This document shows positions 28,799-36,436 of a DNA stretch of 45,676 nt, piece after piece. The DNA lies in assembly GCA_947167125.1 (NCBI GenBank), contig CAMVGT010000014.1, positions 1-45,676 of the forward strand. The letters are read 5' to 3'. The DNA is from an uncultured Erysipelotrichaceae bacterium. GTDB lineage: Bacteria; Bacillota_I; Bacilli_A; Erysipelotrichales; Erysipelotrichaceae. Position 1 is the stretch's first letter, and each line of letters opens with the position of its first letter. Both the position numbers and the translations under genes were made by a program. The notes below the pieces were generated by a model. That model was given only the letters and a program-made list of their open reading frames with translations, was not told the origin of the DNA and did no database searches.

Positions 28799-29191
28799 TC
28801 AGATATGCTTTTTCGCAAATTCTTCTGCTGCCTTCAGCTGCTGTGCATCCGGTCTGTTTTTGACATAGAATGTTTCTTCTTCAACCGGAATACCTGCTTC
28901 AGTCAGTCCCTTCTTCAGAAGATCCATGGAATGCTTTGAGATCCAGGATGTGGAGAATACTGCCGCCTTCTTCACATTTTCCTTCTTCAGTGTTTTCAGC
29001 CATGCCTTCATATGGCCATCAAGACCATATGCATAAAGAGCGCCGCCCACAAAGAGAATGTCCACCGGTTCATTGATGGCTGCTTCAGGCAAATCCACCG
29101 ATACCGCTTTGACGCCTGCCGCACTTGCGATGGCTTCGGCAAGAGCTTTTGTATTGCCGCTTCTGGAATAATATCTGACTGCTGTTTTCAT
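28799..29191 (-). CDS. Flavodoxin-like protein
   Basis: 131 residues from the ATG at 29191 (the frame adds two codons upstream). The FMN phosphate loop is seen at the N-terminus: VRYYSRSGNTKALAEAIA. The later flavin-contact region is FVGGALYAYGLDGHMKAWL, and FSTSWISKH follows, as in short flavodoxins of the Flavodoxin_5/NAD(P)H oxidoreductase-like group. It is an electron carrier or FMN-binding reductase. GAAG/AAAAGAAG before the ATG is a weak ribosome site. It begins the short redox operon with the 44-residue peptide and the peroxidase. Confidence 0.86.
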   Translation of the reverse strand: MKTAVRYYSRSGNTKALAEAIASAAGVKAVSVDLPEAAINEPVDILFVGGALYAYGLDGHMKAWLKTLKKENVKKAAVFSTSWISKHSMDLLKKGLTEAGIPVEEETFYVKNRPDAQQLKAAEEFAKKHI

Positions 29192-29286
29192 AAGCATCTT
29201 CTTTTGTTTTATTCAATTCTATTTGATACAATTTATATATATAGCATAACGGAGAAGAAACGCAAGAGCGGATTGACATTTTCCAG

Positions 29287-29320
29287 AATAAAAAACCCCA
29301 TGGATTTCTCCATGAGGTTT
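29287..29320 (-). terminator. Terminator of the rnf operon
   Basis: On the minus strand AAACCTCATGG (29320-29310) pairs with CCATGGGGTTT (29303-29293) with one mismatch, followed by a T run. Confidence 0.88.
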
Positions 29321-29330
29321 CTTTGAATGA

Positions 29331-29612
29331 TCAGCCTGCGTGTTCCGCAAGGTAAGCAATGATTGCCTGCTTTGCTTCCGCTTTGCAGGGTTTGCATTTG
29401 TCGATGGTGGTTTCGCCGTCGACAAGCTTGGCTGCCATGCCGGCACAGCCCGGGTTTCCGCAGCCGCCGCAGTTGTATCCCGGCAGCATCGCCAGAACTT
29501 CTTCGACTCTGTGGTCTTCTTCCACATACAGCTTGACGCTGGCAACACCGAGCAATATGCCGATGATACCGCCGAGTACAAGCATCAGTAATACTGCTTT
29601 AACGATTCCCAT
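29331..29612 (-). CDS. rnfB: Short RnfB-like protein lacking the ferredoxin domains
   Basis: 93 residues. An N-terminal membrane helix (about 5-28) is followed by the RnfB iron-sulfur domain with Cys48, 51, 56, 73 and 76 (LPGYNCGGCGNPGCAGMAAK, then DKCKPC). A usual RnfB is roughly twice or more this length and continues with at least two [4Fe-4S] ferredoxin motifs; here the frame simply ends after YLAEHAG, followed by a good terminator, so it is not obviously a frameshift. It overlaps the upstream Cys-rich gene. It is probably an electron relay in the Rnf complex; what replaces the missing clusters is unclear. Confidence 0.85.
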   Translation of the reverse strand: MGIVKAVLLMLVLGGIIGILLGVASVKLYVEEDHRVEEVLAMLPGYNCGGCGNPGCAGMAAKLVDGETTIDKCKPCKAEAKQAIIAYLAEHAG

Positions 29613-29796
29613 TTTCTTCCTCTTTCATTTCCATAAATTTTTTTCTGAGTGCGCAGTCCCCGATTCCGCACGCGGCGCAGTCGGGTTTGATGTCTTCACA
29701 TCCTTCCGGAACCGGTGTCTGCCTGTTCCGGATATAAAGGAATGCATTCAGTCCGACCAGGACTGCCGCAATCAGGATTGCAAAGAAAGCCTGCAT
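29599..29796 (-). CDS. 65-residue Cys-rich single-pass membrane protein in the rnf operon
   Basis: One membrane helix at about residues 3-22, then a short cytosolic or external tail with Cys33, Cys40, Cys43 and Cys48 (EGCEDIKPDCAACGIGDCAL): C-x6-C-x2-C-x4-C. The last three share the C-x2-C-x4-C spacing of RnfB's cluster site. The gene sits 3 bases after the rnfA stop and overlaps the start of the short rnfB by 14 bases. It is not a standard Rnf subunit. Four cysteines next to a membrane anchor suggest an iron-sulfur relay or a split-off piece of RnfB; a thiol-disulfide role is the alternative. Confidence 0.75.
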   Translation of the reverse strand: MQAFFAILIAAVLVGLNAFLYIRNRQTPVPEGCEDIKPDCAACGIGDCALRKKFMEMKEEENGNR

Positions 29797-29799
29797 CTA

Positions 29800-30372
29800 T
29801 TATACCAGTCCCGACAGAGAGGAGAAGGCAATCGCCATAATCGCGGCGATGATGAATGCGATCGGGTTCCCTTCAAATGCTTTGGGAACATCGTTTCCTC
29901 TTAAGCGTTCACGGATTGTGGAGAAGATACACAGCATTAACATGAATCCTGCCGGAACACCGATGGAATTGACGATGGTTTCGATCAGGGAATACTTCTG
30001 TGTAATGTTGTCGAGTGCAACATAGAGAACAGCACAGTTTGTTGTGATCAGCGGCAGGTAGATACCCAGCTGCTTGTACAGCGACGGGCTGTTCTTTTTG
30101 ATGAACAGTTCAACGAACTGAACGAATGCCGCAATCAGAAGAATGAAGGTAATCAGCTTCATGTATTCCAGTTCCAGCGGAACAAGAACGCCATAGTACA
30201 GTCCCCATGAAAGAACAGAAGCACAGAAGACGACGAAGATAACCGCGAGGCCCATGCCGACTGCCGATTCCATCTTGGTGGAAACACCCATGAACGGGCA
30301 CATACCGATGAATTTGGAAAGAATAATGTTATTGATCAGCATGCCGCTGATGAACAATGTAAACAGATTCAT
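29800..30372 (-). CDS. rnfA: Rnf complex subunit RnfA
   Basis: Integral membrane subunit of the ferredoxin:NAD oxidoreductase that pumps sodium ions or protons. It has 190 residues and six helices. Typical motifs are LINNIILSKFIGMCPFMG at the N-terminus and LPLITTNCAVLYVALD, whose cysteines (Cys25 and the one in TTNC) bind the membrane [2Fe-2S] cluster with those of RnfE. The gene shares one base with the rnfE stop region and is 3 bases before the small Cys-rich gene. Confidence 0.95.
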   Translation of the reverse strand: MNLFTLFISGMLINNIILSKFIGMCPFMGVSTKMESAVGMGLAVIFVVFCASVLSWGLYYGVLVPLELEYMKLITFILLIAAFVQFVELFIKKNSPSLYKQLGIYLPLITTNCAVLYVALDNITQKYSLIETIVNSIGVPAGFMLMLCIFSTIRERLRGNDVPKAFEGNPIAFIIAAIMAIAFSSLSGLV

Positions 30373-31028
30373 TATTTAGTCCCCTTCTTGGAAGCATTTT
30401 CCACATGATTCTTATATGCGGATACAGCCGCTGCCAGGCACGCAAATGTGATGAACGCGCCGAACTGTTCCTTGAAGAACGGAAGTTCAAATCCTTCCGG
30501 GATCAGACGCAGCGAGAAGATTTCCGCATTTGTGAACGGATTGGAAAGCGAGAGAATTCCGGTGCCGAGGATCTGTCTGACCAGAGACATTGCCAGGATG
30601 CTCAGGGTGTAGGAAATACCCATGGAGACACCGTCCGCAATGGAAGGACCGATCGGATTCATGGAAGCGAACGCTTCCGCTCTTCCCAGAATAATGCAGT
30701 TGACGACGATCAGGTCGATGAACGCGCCGAGTGCGGAATACAGGCTCGGTGTGTATGCCTGAATCACCATACCGACGATGGTGACAAGCGTCGCGATGAT
30801 GACGATGTAAACCGGGATATGGATATCATCCGGTGTCAGATTTCTGACTGCCGAAACAAGGATGTTCGACAGAACCAGAACGACAGTGACGGCGATGCCC
30901 ATGCCGATTGCGTTATTGATGTTGGTTGTAATGGCCAGTGAAGAGCAGATACCGAGGTAAAGTCCGAATACCGGATTTTCAATCAGAAGTCTGTTCAGCA
31001 GACCGTTCTTTTCTTTCTTTTCACTCAT
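30372..31028 (-). CDS. rnfE: Rnf complex subunit RnfE
   Basis: 218 residues, membrane partner of RnfA with the same inverted-topology fold. Motifs: NPVFGLYLGICSSLAITT with the cluster Cys, and LIVVNCIILGRAEAFA with the second Cys. It has about six helices and a charged C-terminal end (YKNHVENASKK). The start is followed by SEKKEKNGLLNRLLIENP. It overlaps rnfA by one base and lies 11 bases after rnfG. Confidence 0.95.
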   Translation of the reverse strand: MSEKKEKNGLLNRLLIENPVFGLYLGICSSLAITTNINNAIGMGIAVTVVLVLSNILVSAVRNLTPDDIHIPVYIVIIATLVTIVGMVIQAYTPSLYSALGAFIDLIVVNCIILGRAEAFASMNPIGPSIADGVSMGISYTLSILAMSLVRQILGTGILSLSNPFTNAEIFSLRLIPEGFELPFFKEQFGAFITFACLAAAVSAYKNHVENASKKGTK

Positions 31029-31039
31029 AGCTGCCTCCG

Positions 31040-32362
31040 TTAATTGCCTTCCGCCATATTCAGCGCGGCTGCGATCATTGCGCGGATCGATGCGCTGGTA
31101 TAGCTGGCACCTGTTGTCGCATCAATTGAGGAATCCAGGGAAACACCTGCATATTTTGCAAGTTCTTCTGCAGATGTCGCTTTATCTCCGACACCCGATG
31201 TGTCCTTGAATGCTGTAACTTCAACTGAAGTGACGGTTCCTTCATCCTTGTTCAGGGTGATCGTCGCTTCGTTGACGCCTTCATATCCTTTTGCATGGCA
31301 TTTGTAAACATAAGCGCTGCTGTCCAGGTTGGACCAGACTCTGCAGCCTGCTTCGTTTGCAGAGAAGTCTTCAGCCGCAAGTCCTGTTCCTGCTGAAGCA
31401 GAACCGGAGTCTGAACCGCCGGATACCGGTTCCTTGCCGGCTGCGACGTTCAGAGCTGCTGCTGCCATGGCACGGATCGATGTGCTGGTGAAGCTTGCGC
31501 CGGTTGTCGCATCCACAACTGTGGAAGCAGAAGCGCCTGCATATCTTGCAAGTTCCGCATCTGTCGTTGCTGTATCACCGACACCTGCTGTGTCGCCGAA
31601 GGATGTAACAGCGATGGAAACGATGGTTCCGTCTGTCACATTGACTGTGACATCGGCTTCATTGATGCCCTCGAATCCTTTCGCGCTGCAGTGGTAGACT
31701 GCTGTTGTACCGTCGTTGGAAACTTCCTCACATGTGACTTCGCTCTTCGAGAAGTCTTCTTCGCCGAGCGGTTTCTGCGCCTCTTTTTCCGGAGCTGCCG
31801 GTGCAGCGTCAGGATCATAGGAAATTCCCATCAGATCGTTGAAGACAGCCTTTGCGGCATTGATGCCGTTGGATACTGCCGTGCTTGTCAGTGTCGCGCC
31901 GGAAAGCAGCGGGACAGGATCGCTGGAAGTCAGGGCCATGATCTGTGAACTGTAGTCATCATCGAAGCAGCGGGAACCGACACCGCTTGTTTCCTGCTGT
32001 TCGAGTGCCTTATAGCCGGATACGGTTCCGTCATTGTTGAAACCGACCATGAAGGTCAGGCCGTTGGAGTTATAACCGACCCCGTGAAGTGTGAAGACAT
32101 ATCCCTGTCCTTCCGCTTCATAGATTCCGTCGATCAGACCTGTTTCATCCTTGGCGATGAGGTCTTCCGTCACATCTTTGAAACTGCCGCCCGGATAGAT
32201 TTCTTCCAGGCTCTTTTTGACTGCCGCAAGCGCATTGGCTTCAATGATCGGTGCTGTAACGGCATTGACAACGGACAGCAGAAGTCCGCATACCGCACAC
32301 AGGATACCGAGCAGGAGCGCTTTGTACTGAGCAGAGTTATGATCTAAATTTTTCATCTTCAT
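31040..32362 (-). CDS. rnfG: RnfG with two additional FMN-binding domains
   Basis: 440 residues, about twice the usual RnfG. One membrane helix at about 15-36 is followed by the normal periplasmic RnfG domain (about 45-175) with the flavinylation motif SGATLTST at 154-161. Two tandem FMN_bind domains follow: residues 199-310 with TGASFTS (287-293) and residues 328-440 with TGASYTS (417-423). Ser/Gly/Ala-rich linkers join them. Each motif has the Thr or Ser to which ApbE can attach FMN by a phosphoester bond. All three domains keep GVGD- or GVGSR-type glycine loops. Three covalent flavins are predicted. The apbE gene is divergent, next to rnfC. Confidence 0.92.
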   Translation of the reverse strand: MKMKNLDHNSAQYKALLLGILCAVCGLLLSVVNAVTAPIIEANALAAVKKSLEEIYPGGSFKDVTEDLIAKDETGLIDGIYEAEGQGYVFTLHGVGYNSNGLTFMVGFNNDGTVSGYKALEQQETSGVGSRCFDDDYSSQIMALTSSDPVPLLSGATLTSTAVSNGINAAKAVFNDLMGISYDPDAAPAAPEKEAQKPLGEEDFSKSEVTCEEVSNDGTTAVYHCSAKGFEGINEADVTVNVTDGTIVSIAVTSFGDTAGVGDTATTDAELARYAGASASTVVDATTGASFTSTSIRAMAAAALNVAAGKEPVSGGSDSGSASAGTGLAAEDFSANEAGCRVWSNLDSSAYVYKCHAKGYEGVNEATITLNKDEGTVTSVEVTAFKDTSGVGDKATSAEELAKYAGVSLDSSIDATTGASYTSASIRAMIAAALNMAEGN

Positions 32363-32711
32363 TCCCTCCTCAGTTGCCCGCAGCCATGTTCAGCGCCTTG
32401 GCTGCCATTGCGCGCAGCGATGAGCTTGTGAATGTGGCACCGCTTGTCGCGTCGATGGAAGAATTGATTGTCGCGCCTTCATAGCGTGCCAGTTCTTCAG
32501 CAGCTGTCGCCTTGTCGCCGACACCAGCTGTGTCTTTGAATGCGGTGACTTCGATTGAAGTGACGGTTCCTTCATCCTTGTTCAGGGTGATGGTCGCTTC
32601 GTTTGTTCCTTCATATCCCTTTGCCTGGCAATGATAGACAAGCGCTGCAGTGTCGGTGTTGGACCAGACTCTGCATGCGACGTTATTGGCACTGAAGTCT
32701 TCCAGTGCCAT
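31043..32711 (-). repeat. Three copies of an extra FMN-binding domain, in rnfG (two) and rnfD (one)
   Basis: Copies lie at 31043-31381 and 31433-31768 (rnfG) and 32373-32711 (rnfD). The last rnfG copy and the rnfD copy are nearly alike at protein level (both read YEG-NEATITLNKDEGTVTS) and share 36 identical bases at 31226-31261 and 32546-32581. The middle copy is more diverged. This points to recent exchange between the ends of two adjacent genes. Confidence 0.85.
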
Positions 32712-33848
32712 GCCGGCAGGTTCGGATGTGTCTGTCTGTGTATCAGCGGAAGGAGCCGGTTTTGCGGAAGCTTCCACCGGATCAAGTGTCATACCGACAC
32801 CGAATGCGGCCAGAAGGACAACTGCGGAAGTGATAATCACCTTTCTGCGGATCTGGACCTGGTTCTTGATCTGGTTGCCGTCAACGAGCTTGTCGATTGC
32901 CGGAGTTACCATGTTCATTAACAGAATCGAGAAGAGAACGCCGTCAGGAAGATTGGATTTCCATCTTAAGATCAGTGTCAGCGCCGCGCAGCCGACCGCG
33001 AATACCATACGGCCGGGAATTGTGATCGGCGTTGTGACAGGGTCTGTCATCATGAAGACTGTTCCGAAGAGAACGCCGCCGCTGATGACATTGAAGACTG
33101 CGTAGTTGAAGCCTGCGCCTTTGATCAGGCCGACAACCAGAGACAGGCAGAATATTGTGATCAGGTAAGTAACTGACAGATGCCAGTCAATGTCTTTTCT
33201 CCACAGCAGGAATGCGCCGCATAACAGAATCAGCAGTGCGCAGCTGCCGCCGATGACACTCGGATAGGAACCTAACAGCAGGCCGCCGAATCCGCCGAAT
33301 CCGTCAATCAGATTGCCCAGTGCGCTTCCTGAAAGCATCCAGCCCTGGGAATTCACTGCTGCCATCGGAGTTGCGCCGGAGAATACATCTGCGGTAACCG
33401 AAGCGGCTTTGGAAGCGGAGAAGCTGTTCATGATCAGAGCTTCGCCGAAAGCTGCCGGGTTGAAGATGTTCTGGCCGAATCCGCCGAAGACGAGCTTGCC
33501 GATGATAATCGCAACTGCTGTTGCGATAAACAGTGCATAGTAGCTGACATCCAGTCTTGTGATGAGTGTCAGGATCAGGCCGGTAACCCAGCCATAGGAA
33601 TGCATGACTTCCTTCTTCACGTCATAGCCGCGCATCTTGAAGTAGAGCGCTTCTGTACCGAAGGAAGCAGCCAGAGATACCAATGTCATCAGGATGACGC
33701 GCAGACCGAGCGCCGGTCCGTATGCGACACCGTAATAAATCGCCGAGAAGATTACAATCGCAACCAGGCACATGGACAAATCGAGCATGATGCCGGTGGT
33801 TGTCTGCGTATTGCGGTAGTTCGGTGAAGGCTTATAACTGAATTTCAT
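32370..33848 (-). CDS. rnfD: RnfD with a C-terminal FMN-binding domain extension
   Basis: 492 residues against the usual 310-350. Residues 1-355 are the integral membrane RnfD, with the covalent FMN motif VFSGATPMAA (Thr160), NPAAFGEALIM, and FMMTDPVTTPIT. A final helix (about 336-352) is followed by a Ser/Pro/Thr linker and an added FMN_bind domain at residues 380-492 with SGATFTS at 469-475, placed outside the membrane. The added domain closely matches the last domain of RnfG. It overlaps rnfC by one base and is 7 bases ahead of rnfG. Confidence 0.92.
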   Translation of the reverse strand: MKFSYKPSPNYRNTQTTTGIMLDLSMCLVAIVIFSAIYYGVAYGPALGLRVILMTLVSLAASFGTEALYFKMRGYDVKKEVMHSYGWVTGLILTLITRLDVSYYALFIATAVAIIIGKLVFGGFGQNIFNPAAFGEALIMNSFSASKAASVTADVFSGATPMAAVNSQGWMLSGSALGNLIDGFGGFGGLLLGSYPSVIGGSCALLILLCGAFLLWRKDIDWHLSVTYLITIFCLSLVVGLIKGAGFNYAVFNVISGGVLFGTVFMMTDPVTTPITIPGRMVFAVGCAALTLILRWKSNLPDGVLFSILLMNMVTPAIDKLVDGNQIKNQVQIRRKVIITSAVVLLAAFGVGMTLDPVEASAKPAPSADTQTDTSEPAGMALEDFSANNVACRVWSNTDTAALVYHCQAKGYEGTNEATITLNKDEGTVTSIEVTAFKDTAGVGDKATAAEELARYEGATINSSIDATSGATFTSSSLRAMAAKALNMAAGN

Positions 33849-35164
33849 TATTTCTTCGCCTCCTTTGCACGGGATGCCATTCTGGTTCTGACGAAGTTCT
33901 TCGCCCTTCTGACATTTTCCGTTACATCAATCTTGGACGGGCATATCCATGTGCACATGCCGCACTCGATGCAGTCCATAAGGGACAGCTTCATGAGTTC
34001 TTCCTCATCGAAGATGGCATTGGACATCTGGATACGTACCGGCTGCAGTCCGGACGGACATGTTTCCGTGCAGCGTCCGCAGCGCAGGCACTTGACCTCA
34101 TCCTTCGGTCTGTTGATCAGGACAGTCAGGCCGTTGTTCGGTGCCGCAATGACGAACTTGTCATTCGGGATTGTTTTACCCATCATCGGTCCGCCGGCAA
34201 TCAGAAGAACATCTTCTGTTCCTTCTTTGTATCCGCCGACAGCGTCGATGATCTCGGAAGCCTTTGTGCCTACCGGAACAAGGACATTCTGCGGATGATT
34301 CAGGGCATCGCCGGATACTGTTACATATTTGTGGGTAATCGGCATGCCGTTTTCAATCGCATTTCCAAGAGCGATCGCAGTGGACGCGTTGTTGAGAATG
34401 CATCCGGCTTCGATCGGCAGCTTGTCATATCTCTTCTTTGTCAGCTGATAGACAAGTGTACGTTCCCAGCCCATCGGATAAAGATCCGGTACGGTTCTGA
34501 TTTCGATCGGTGTGCCGGCAAATGTCTTCTGCAGGGCAGCGATCTGTTCCGTCTTGTCTTCCTTGATGGCAACACAGCCCTTCGCAGCTTTGGAAAGCTT
34601 GAAGAGAGCGAGTGTACCGGTCTTAAGGAGATCGATATTTTCTTCGATGTTTTTATAATCCGCGGTCAGATACGGTTCGCATTCCACGGCATTGACAATG
34701 AACAGCTCGACATTCTGCGGATTCAGATATTTGACATAGGTCGGGAAACCGGCGCCGCCAAGGCCCAGCATTCCGGCGTTCTTGACGAAATCAAGAACTT
34801 CCTGCCATTCCGCTTTTTCATAATCAAACGGTTCAAATGCACGCACTTTTTCATGTTTATGATCATTTGTGATGACCAGATGCTCAGCCTGGCTCATCGA
34901 GGATGTCATAAACTTTTCTGTTCCTGTCACTGTGCCTGAGACAGGGGAGAAAACCGGCAGATAGAAATGATCATTTCTTTCTGCAATTTTTGTGCCGACT
35001 TTAACTTCATCGCCGATACTGACAAGCGGCTTGCAGGGAGCGTTGCCGTTCATCAGAGGGATATAGACCTTATCCGGATCAATCGTTTTTAAAACATTTT
35101 CATGTTTGGTAAGATCCTTATGCCCTTCCAGGTGATGATTCATCGGACCTGTTAAAATTGACAT
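33848..35164 (-). CDS. rnfC: Rnf complex subunit RnfC
   Basis: NADH/FMN-binding cytoplasmic subunit, 438 residues from the ATG at 35164; the frame continues 21 codons further through the promoter, and MSILTGPMNHHLEGHKD is the normal-looking start. Motifs: GLGGAGFPTYVKYLN for the FMN/NADH site, then two ferredoxin-type cluster motifs, CLRCGRCTETCPSG and CIECGMCTWICPSK. It is the first gene of the operon. AAAGGG lies 12 bases before the ATG. A -10-like TATAAT is at 35206-35201 in the 132-base divergent region shared with apbE. Confidence 0.94.
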   Translation of the reverse strand: MSILTGPMNHHLEGHKDLTKHENVLKTIDPDKVYIPLMNGNAPCKPLVSIGDEVKVGTKIAERNDHFYLPVFSPVSGTVTGTEKFMTSSMSQAEHLVITNDHKHEKVRAFEPFDYEKAEWQEVLDFVKNAGMLGLGGAGFPTYVKYLNPQNVELFIVNAVECEPYLTADYKNIEENIDLLKTGTLALFKLSKAAKGCVAIKEDKTEQIAALQKTFAGTPIEIRTVPDLYPMGWERTLVYQLTKKRYDKLPIEAGCILNNASTAIALGNAIENGMPITHKYVTVSGDALNHPQNVLVPVGTKASEIIDAVGGYKEGTEDVLLIAGGPMMGKTIPNDKFVIAAPNNGLTVLINRPKDEVKCLRCGRCTETCPSGLQPVRIQMSNAIFDEEELMKLSLMDCIECGMCTWICPSKIDVTENVRRAKNFVRTRMASRAKEAKK

Positions 35165-35258
35165 AGTATTGTAAACCCTTTCTTTTTCCCTAACATGAGT
35201 ATTATACATCATTTCATGATTGACCATCGTGCAAAAAAAGATTCTTGAGCTGCCTGAC

Positions 35259-35296: not shown

Positions 35297-36436
35297 ATGA
35301 GAAACAGAAAAATACTGATCACGCTTCTGTGTGCCGCGTTCCTTACCGGATGCGCAGCAGAGCAGGAAGCGGAAAAAGCACCTGAGCAGGAGCTTGAAAA
35401 ATACACAAATCTGTCTGCCGACGCAGGTTTCGACACCGTCTATCAGCAGACGGAATTCGGCTATGACCATGATCTGATGGCCGAGCATTACACCAAAGCC
35501 GTCTCCATGTTTTCATCCTTCAATGATCTGTTTGATATCTACAACGAATACGAAGGCATCGGAAATCTGATGACAATCAACGCGAATGCCGGAATTGCCC
35601 CGGTGGAAACGGATCAGCGGATCATTGACATGTTAAAAGAAGCGAAGATGTTCTATGAGATTTCAGGCGGAGCCTTTGATATCACCATCGGTTCTCTTCT
35701 GCATGTCTGGCATGAATACCGCGACCGCGGCATTGCGCTGAATCAGCAGGGCACCAAGGCACCGATACCTTCCGATGAGGAGCTGAAGGAAGCTGCTGAA
35801 AAATGCGGATGGGACAAAGTGGTCATCGATGAAGAAAACAAAACGGTATTCATCACGGAAAAAGGCGTGAGTCTTGATGTCGGCGGCATTGCCAAAGGCT
35901 ATGCGGCAGAAGCGATCGGACAGTTCATGGAAACACAGGATGTGGTATATGCGACAATCAATGCCGGCCGCAACATCCGCACCGTCCATTCCAAAGCGGA
36001 TGGCAAGCCATGGTCAATCGGCATCACCGATCCATCAGACGGCAATTCCCTGTACTGCGCAGTCGAGATGGACGGATCCGGATCCTTTGTCACAAGCGGC
36101 GATTATGAGCGCTATTATATCGGTGAAGATGGCGGCATCTATCACCACATCATCGATCCCAAAACACTGAAGCCTGCTGATTACTATCACAGCGTCTCGA
36201 TTATCACACCTGATTCCGGAGCGGCCGACTGCCTTTCCACCACCCTCTTCACCCTCAGCATTGAAGACGGGAAAAAGGTTCTCGAAGCCTATGAAAAAGA
36301 AACCGGAAATCCGGTCAATGCGGTCTGGATCATGGATCCTCAGAAAACACAGAATGAGGAAGGAAAGCTTTCCGGAGAATACTTCTGTGTCTATACAGAT
36401 GGCATCAAAGACAGAATCACATTTGTCAGAAACTGA
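35297..36436 (+). CDS. apbE: FAD:protein FMN transferase ApbE, lipoprotein
   Basis: Moves FMN from FAD to Thr/Ser of RnfG, RnfD and other FMN_bind domains outside the membrane. It has 379 residues with a lipoprotein signal MRNRKILITLLCAAFLTGC, so Cys19 is the lipidated residue. Domain motifs: FYEISGGAFDITIGSLLHVWHEY, VSLDVGGIAKGYAAEAIGQFM, GSFVTSGDYERYY, HHIIDPKTLKPAD and the metal site in DSGAADCLSTTLF. The usual GGN reads AGRN here. The position divergent from rnfC fits its substrate. It ends in a strong bidirectional terminator. Confidence 0.94.
   Translation: MRNRKILITLLCAAFLTGCAAEQEAEKAPEQELEKYTNLSADAGFDTVYQQTEFGYDHDLMAEHYTKAVSMFSSFNDLFDIYNEYEGIGNLMTINANAGIAPVETDQRIIDMLKEAKMFYEISGGAFDITIGSLLHVWHEYRDRGIALNQQGTKAPIPSDEELKEAAEKCGWDKVVIDEENKTVFITEKGVSLDVGGIAKGYAAEAIGQFMETQDVVYATINAGRNIRTVHSKADGKPWSIGITDPSDGNSLYCAVEMDGSGSFVTSGDYERYYIGEDGGIYHHIIDPKTLKPADYYHSVSIITPDSGAADCLSTTLFTLSIEDGKKVLEAYEKETGNPVNAVWIMDPQKTQNEEGKLSGEYFCVYTDGIKDRITFVRN

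Follow-up and report, generated by a model that had tools for sequence, protein, structure and literature searches.

The window analysed here is the 45,676-nucleotide contig CAMVGT010000014.1 of an uncultured Erysipelotrichaceae bacterium (assembly GCA_947167125.1), which is contig C14 of a 2.87-Mb draft genome. It carries an operon in the order rnfC-D-G-E-A-'sm'-B, located entirely on the minus strand, with the flavin transferase gene apbE divergent from it. The operon represents a variant type of Rnf from Erysipelotrichales, in which RnfG and RnfD carry three FMN_bind domains beyond the classical one of RnfG. An earlier note on this DNA had proposed that the complex bears five covalent flavin mononucleotide (FMN) sites instead of two and that these form a flavin wire outside the membrane. 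The features are as follows, in window positions.

33848..35227, minus strand: rnfC, with Complex1_51K, RnfC_N and SLBB domains and two 4Fe-4S motifs
32370..33848, minus strand: rnfD, 492 amino acids (aa), with the RnfD core, an extra helix and a C-terminal FMN_bind domain
33363..33380, minus strand: classical RnfD flavinylation site (predicted), residues 157-162, SGATPM
32793..32861, minus strand: extra RnfD membrane helix, residues 330-352, from an AlphaFold2 model and hydropathy
32388..32618, minus strand: extra RnfD FMN_bind domain, residues 411-487, from a profile search
32427..32444, minus strand: extra RnfD site (predicted), residues 469-474, SGATFT
31040..32362, minus strand: rnfG, 440 aa, with three FMN_bind domains
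31853..32062, minus strand: classical FMN_bind domain of RnfG, with residues 154-159 as its predicted site
31448..31654, minus strand: second FMN_bind domain of RnfG (extra), with residues 287-292 as its predicted site
31058..31288, minus strand: third FMN_bind domain of RnfG (extra), with residues 417-422 as its predicted site
30372..31028, minus strand: rnfE, both [2Fe-2S] cysteines present
29800..30372, minus strand: rnfA, both [2Fe-2S] cysteines present
29599..29796, minus strand: 'sm', 65 aa, between rnfA and rnfB, a conserved, unnamed protein with a membrane helix and C-x6-C-x2-C-x4-C
29331..29612, minus strand: rnfB, 93 aa, with a membrane helix and a PF04060 FeS domain
29290..29319, minus strand: terminator-like hairpin and T run 3' of rnfB, read by eye
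35297..36436, plus strand: apbE, flavin transferase, with a lipoprotein-like start judged by eye

All Rnf subunits (C, D, G, E, A, and B) are encoded within this one operon, the four RnfA and RnfE cysteines for the [2Fe-2S] cluster are present, and flavinylation motifs, assessed at the motif level, lie on both the RnfD core and RnfG. The cytosolic C-terminal PF00175 domain of the Nqr/Rnf-like two-subunit system is absent from the window RnfD, which matches only PF03116 and PF04205. NCBIfam cut-offs were reached for rnfC, rnfA, and PRK12405 (RsxE) and missed for TIGR01946 rnfD (181 versus 207.05), TIGR01947 rnfG (76.8 versus 102), TIGR01944 rnfB (59 versus 68.7), and TIGR01948 rnfE (194.6 versus 213.4).

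Profile searches bore out the domain architecture that the earlier note had read from the sequence. RnfG contains three PF04205 stretches (E value, 2.5e-30), the classical domain and two further ones, and RnfD combines a PF03116 core at residues 6 to 326 (5.9e-70), which holds the SGATPM site, with PF04205 at residues 411 to 487 (43.1 bits; cut-off, 22). All four FMN_bind domains scored above the curated cut-off in a six-frame genome search. The five [ST]GA[ST] motifs were located at the residues previously named, SGATLT at 154, TGASFT at 287, and TGASYT at 417 of RnfG and SGATPM at 157 and SGATFT at 469 of RnfD, and they predict five covalent FMN sites. A chimeric assembly as the origin of the RnfD fusion is ruled out, as 101/120 RnfD homologs at the head of the list (395 in all at E≤1e-10, counting the cluster of the window itself) likewise end in FMN domains, in line with the suggestion in the earlier note to look for such fusions in other genomes. 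One such homolog, P0088, is encoded on a contig of 1.5 Mb that bears the name Bulleidia sp. zg-1006.

High similarity marks the three extra domains as close copies, as seen in their mutual protein identities (75% between the third RnfG domain and the RnfD domain, 62% between the second RnfG domain and the RnfD domain, and 59% between the second and third RnfG domains) and a 36-base exact run shared by the third RnfG domain and the RnfD domain, whose DNA is 77% identical over 334 aligned columns. Their identity to the classical RnfG domain is 23 to 29%. This closeness, together with the variable number of domains among relatives and some motif loss, could also mean that a duplicating module has accumulated for the most part neutrally, whether or not its copies are flavinylated, and that it affects the complex little. 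We consider this improbable, because the strict [ST]GA[ST] motif is kept among relatives in 130/153 extra RnfD domains (in a census whose profile was made from motif-bearing domains and is thus biased toward retention) and in 37/45 extra RnfG sites. In the FMN part of RnfD, moreover, divergence from two relatives is higher at third codon positions than at the other two (0.61 versus 0.31/0.30 and 0.55 versus 0.24/0.19), which indicates constraint. The motif has been lost from the C-terminal RnfD FMN domains of P0017, P0062, P0021, and others (e.g., TNAT, SSAT, and ATAS), and the classical site of several RnfD cores reads TSATP or TAATP.

The RnfD extension was modeled with AlphaFold2 from 17 sequences (mean predicted local distance difference test score, 72.8; predicted template modeling score, 0.62). 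The model places the core first, then a helix at residues 330 to 352, a low-confidence linker (residues 361 to 376 score below 50), and a separate C-terminal domain of strands with a final helix at 472 to 489 after the motif. Foldseek matched the modeled core to RnfD of Acetobacterium woodii (9eri_D) and Clostridium tetanomorphum (7zc6_D). In a profile built from the 17 relatives, positions 398 to 483 match the solved FMN4 domain 8p2b, and positions 338 to 481 match RnfG of C. tetanomorphum. Because the latter stretch includes the extra helix, the extension as a whole looks like an entire RnfG-type unit. In the C. tetanomorphum structure the RnfD C terminus is described as cytoplasmic (PMC9588780), and one additional helix ahead of the FMN domain would therefore bring that domain outside the membrane, an orientation that fits the model and the analogy with the solved complex. 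The same helix-plus-FMN plan appears on a further subunit. RnfE proteins of 353 to 369 aa in loci L087 (10384-11484), L109 (1796-2905), and L136 (10288-11349), from Dielma and Traorella, consist of RnfE, a further hydrophobic stretch, and an FMN domain detected with a custom profile rather than Pfam, and RnfE would thus be a third type of Rnf subunit with a flavin module. In the cultured Dielma fastidiosa (L087), both RnfD and RnfE bear such extra flavin domains.

The distribution of the variant was surveyed at two levels. A PF04060 search of 60 genomes, the window's own included, found a short frame (94 to 140 aa) in 43, a frame of 260 to 298 aa, taken as canonical RnfB, in 10, and neither in 7; PF04060 frames of ∼390 to 610 aa are other proteins. 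In the 121 fetched loci with RnfD, RnfB was matched in 103, comprising 91 short (at most 150 aa and no CxxCxxCxxxC) and 12 long copies, counts that include duplicates and under-sample the long class because the loci were fetched with variant-class queries. Among the short-RnfB loci, RnfD carries no FMN domain in 28, one in 41, two in 19, and three in 3, and RnfG carries one in 65, two to five in 23, and none in 1 (RnfG was unmatched in 2). The long-RnfB loci have an FMN domain on RnfD in 0/12 and a two-domain RnfG in 2/12. A concatenated RnfA-E-C-D tree (FastTree) of 90 loci, from which 9 identical RnfD and the incomplete loci were dropped, was rooted on the long loci plus L131, L141, L154, and L157 (no RnfB match), and it grouped the short-RnfB loci together with a support of 0.942. 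The organism of the window is probably an Erysipelotrichaceae member of the Bulleidia/Solobacterium type, to go by the names of close protein relatives and by L118, a Solobacterium metagenome-assembled genome that has exactly the same RnfD sequence as G005, a genome of the window's genus. Two other genomes of that genus (G004:C96 and G030:C105) have a canonical RnfB, and in each of them the RnfD and FMN_bind matches fall in frames of one and the same length (543 aa and 526 aa, respectively), which suggests an RnfD-RnfG fusion.

The short RnfB and the conserved small cysteine protein, on which the earlier note was silent, bear on how electrons enter the complex. Apart from its membrane helix, the window RnfB has just the PF04060 domain, which is predicted to hold one cluster; the C-terminal ferredoxin-acceptor domain of the solved complexes is absent from it, and solved RnfB chains (174 to 333 aa) align with the short-RnfB family over the first ∼90 residues only. 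This C-terminal part, with 2 to 7 clusters, is described as the ferredoxin acceptor in a review (PMC12174285). One could therefore suppose that ferredoxin is no longer used and that NADH enters at RnfC, with electrons passing outward through RnfD, RnfG, and the extra flavin domains. The Thermotoga maritima complex tells against abandoning ferredoxin on the basis of a 93-aa RnfB, and leaves this explanation as a rival: the T. maritima RnfB is reported at 10.56 kDa with one predicted cluster (PMC7414866; a short RnfB is likewise noted in PMC9588780), and the purified complex catalyzes ferredoxin:NAD oxidoreduction and Na+ transport (PMC7414866). The window RnfB is likewise of ∼10 kDa with one predicted [4Fe-4S] cluster, a likeness in size and predicted cluster content. 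The window also retains all four cysteines, RnfB, and 'sm', and we regard exclusive NADH entry here as rather doubtful.

Loss of the ferredoxin arm has apparently occurred elsewhere in the variant clade. Both [2Fe-2S] cysteines are kept in 108/110 RnfA and 110/112 RnfE, and the exceptions in both cases are L097 (Proteiniclasticum aestuarii) and L142 (an uncultured Firmicute). Their RnfC-D-G-E-A operons (L097, 6613-11638; L142, 6659-10925) have all four RnfA and RnfE cysteines replaced, and neither locus has a match to RnfB or 'sm'. RnfC, with Complex1_51K and 4Fe-4S domains, is retained in both, as are RnfD and RnfG. FMN_bind domains number one on RnfD and two on RnfG in L097; L142 has one on RnfG and none on RnfD. 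L097 is nested within the variant clade (supports, 0.93, 0.974, and 0.989), and L142 falls inside the core (0.989) on a long branch, with a weak nearest grouping (0.495) and faint RnfA and RnfG matches (7.8e-8 and 2.4e-10). The L097 genome additionally encodes a separate canonical Rnf with a 276-aa RnfB (L162), which together with these losses favors the NADH-only reading, and four FMN_bind frames of 595 to 614 aa (FMN_bind match only). No PF04060 match was found in the genome of L142, which is 1.1 Mb in size and of unstated completeness. By their sequences, both operons are candidate NADH-to-outside conduits.

In L097 and L142, 'sm' has disappeared together with RnfB and the cysteines, which points to 'sm' as part of the [2Fe-2S]/RnfB arm. 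The protein (∼60 aa) has a membrane helix and four cysteines that are invariant in 19/19 aligned sequences, and it is present in 89/91 short-RnfB loci and 0/12 long-RnfB loci. The two short-RnfB loci without it, L130 (8001-11413) and L132 (2183-6445), encode RnfB of 93 and 86 aa and RnfD of 582 to 590 aa with two FMN domains; no separate rnfG was matched in either, and L132 has an unidentified 276-aa open reading frame between rnfD and rnfE. At E≤1, neither Pfam nor NCBIfam gives a match for the window 'sm', and two of its relatives match PF12669 (FeoB_associated) below the cut-off. NqrM of the Nqr complex has four cysteines. Like 'sm', it is a small membrane protein encoded beside its complex and may be a functional analogue, although no match to the curated NqrM/DUF539 family links the two at E≤1. 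NqrM is the [2Fe-2S] maturation protein of Nqr (PMC12174285), and by this analogy 'sm' is a candidate for a similar maturation role or for a further redox carrier or Rnf subunit.

Possible acceptors are encoded elsewhere in the genome. FMN_bind was found in five frames besides the rnf operon; four of them (L002, L003, which is cut at the locus end, L004, and L007) combine it with FAD_binding_2 in proteins of the fumarate-reductase kind with lipoprotein-like starts judged by eye, and the fifth is 132 aa long. The gene beside rnf is the single ApbE match in the genome, and PF12801 and PF01794, which represent NapH- and MsrQ-type donors, had no match there (PepSY, DsbD, and Ndh2 types were not searched). 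FMN_bind matches outside the operon occur in 37/44 variant genomes (the 43 short-RnfB genomes and G031, in which the contig breaks off within rnfD) versus 1/10 canonical genomes (Fisher's exact test, P = 1.9e-5, relatedness uncorrected). The number of extra FMN domains on the complex (beads) correlates with the number of outside matches (Spearman coefficient, 0.48; P = 0.0017; n = 41 variant genomes, relatedness uncorrected). This correlation leaves out G011, G012, and G031, whose contigs end in the operon; for G042, G047, and G055, frame lengths served to score the beads; and the drafts include incomplete and contaminated ones, such as G014 (10% contaminated), which has 14 outside matches. 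Nine genomes without extra beads have 0 to 2 outside matches and the other 32 have 0 to 14.

These associations also speak to whether the beads serve the pump itself, as a local electron buffer or a means of faster RnfG-RnfD exchange from which no electrons are exported. The beads do sit on the electron-exchanging subunits and the whole internal loop is kept, and the L142 genome has a related complex without an FMN_bind reductase candidate, though that complex lacks an extra bead too. A function confined to the pump is nonetheless unlikely in our estimation, since bead number tracks FMN_bind matches elsewhere in the genome, a bead-bearing RnfC-D-G complex without the ferredoxin arm exists in L097, and Meheust et al. 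interpret multi-flavinylated RnfG as a second pathway (PMC8238504).

We propose instead, at roughly even confidence, that the variant Rnf keeps the ferredoxin:NAD loop and that the tethered flavin beads branch electrons to extracytosolic reductases. The internal loop would run from the [4Fe-4S] cluster of the short RnfB through the RnfA/RnfE [2Fe-2S] cluster, the classical RnfG FMN, and the RnfD FMN to RnfC and NAD. Electrons could enter from ferredoxin at RnfB or from NADH at RnfC, and electrons from both entries would converge where the flavins of RnfG and RnfD exchange them. The three beads, held on flexible linkers outside the membrane near this exchange point, would be reduced there and pass electrons to flavinylated extracytosolic reductases encoded elsewhere in the genome, making the pump a branch point between ferredoxin or NADH and outside acceptors. 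For the internal loop, this proposal draws on the kept cysteines, the NADH/FMN and Fe-S domains of RnfC, the RnfD site, and the active one-cluster RnfB complex of T. maritima. For the outward branch, it draws on the extra domains and their motifs, the added RnfD helix ahead of the FMN domain, the helix-plus-FMN plan of RnfE, motif retention, the four FMN_bind plus FAD_binding_2 proteins, the single ApbE, the lack of PF12801 and PF01794 matches, the association of outside FMN_bind with variant genomes and bead number, and the retention of RnfC, RnfD, and RnfG in the RnfB-less L097 and L142. One multi-FMN protein of another organism is reported to have a single potential of −184 mV (PMC10339131), a value at which electrons would pass more readily to acceptors of the fumarate type than back to NAD.

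Several observations weigh against the proposed branch. No extra bead is found in 23/91 short-RnfB loci, among them L114 of the cultured Holdemanella biformis DSM 3989, which does have 'sm', and 17/153 extra RnfD domains lack the motif even under a relaxed xGA[ST] rule. No outside FMN_bind was detected in variant genomes G001, G006, G012, G026, G029, G042, and G055, while the canonical-RnfB genome G054 has 7 such matches. The only FMN_bind match in the L142 genome is a 188-aa frame like its RnfG, a misfit with an FMN_bind-type reductase as acceptor there. The flavin wire of the earlier note is thus favored in part: the five predicted sites and the fitting orientation, the four lipoprotein-like reductase candidates, the absence of PF12801 and PF01794 donors, and the two relatives without a ferredoxin arm speak for it, and the bead-less loci against it; electron transfer along it is an inference. 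A broader view, that a distinct Rnf clade with a short RnfB, 'sm' as a four-cysteine membrane subunit or maturase, and an added RnfD helix is an energy-coupled hub of flavin respiration, in which FMN plugs on RnfG, RnfD, or RnfE feed extracytosolic reductases and whose ferredoxin arm was discarded twice to leave an NADH-to-outside flavin conduit, is plausible but less likely than not.

Some further details concern the ends of the operon. The rnfC open reading frame encodes 459 aa, most complete relatives have 428 to 449 aa, and the true start probably lies ∼21 codons downstream. In L052 (4826-6133), rnfC is split into two open reading frames of 169 and 259 aa, likely by a frameshift or sequencing error. 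A 132-aa flavodoxin-like gene (28799-29197, minus strand) lies beyond the terminator-like hairpin 3' of rnfB and is probably outside the operon.

Parts of this picture are already published. A bifurcated or second path to extracytosolic acceptors was proposed for multi-flavinylated RnfG by Meheust et al. in 2021 (PMC8238504), whose Rnf clusters resemble the window in that RnfG has at least two FMN_bind domains; the available parts of that paper do not mention the short RnfB, 'sm', or an additional helix followed by FMN_bind on RnfD (or on RnfE, as in L087, L109, and L136). The T. maritima Rnf shares the ∼10-kDa, one-cluster RnfB and the gene order rnfCDGEAB, but its covalent flavins are on RnfD and RnfG, with no extra domains described in the sections consulted (PMC7414866). 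The C. tetanomorphum and A. woodii complexes (7zc6 and 9eri) match the window in the RnfD core and the N-terminal part of RnfB; unlike it, they have a long RnfB with the ferredoxin-acceptor domain and an RnfD of ∼310 to 318 aa without an extension. SaFMN3-type multi-FMN proteins also have tandem similar FMN_bind domains, and 8p2b matches the RnfD extension, but they are described as secreted proteins in their own right, with no ion pump attached (PMC10339131). In the portions of the literature searched, fusions of RnfD or RnfE with FMN_bind, 'sm', and derivatives lacking RnfB go unmentioned; a short RnfB is noted there for T. maritima but not described for Erysipelotrichales. The RnfD and RnfE flavin-module fusions and 'sm' look like new details.

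To our knowledge, how fermenting gut anaerobes feed flavinylated extracytosolic reductases is not settled for this group. The operon, with ApbE adjoining it and no NapH- or MsrQ-type donor found, is a concrete candidate for the donor, and 'sm' is a candidate for a further Rnf subunit or a [2Fe-2S] maturation factor. Canonical Rnf, short-RnfB Rnf with beads, and RnfB-less Rnf without the [2Fe-2S] cysteines together represent natural experiments that separate the ferredoxin arm from the putative outward arm.

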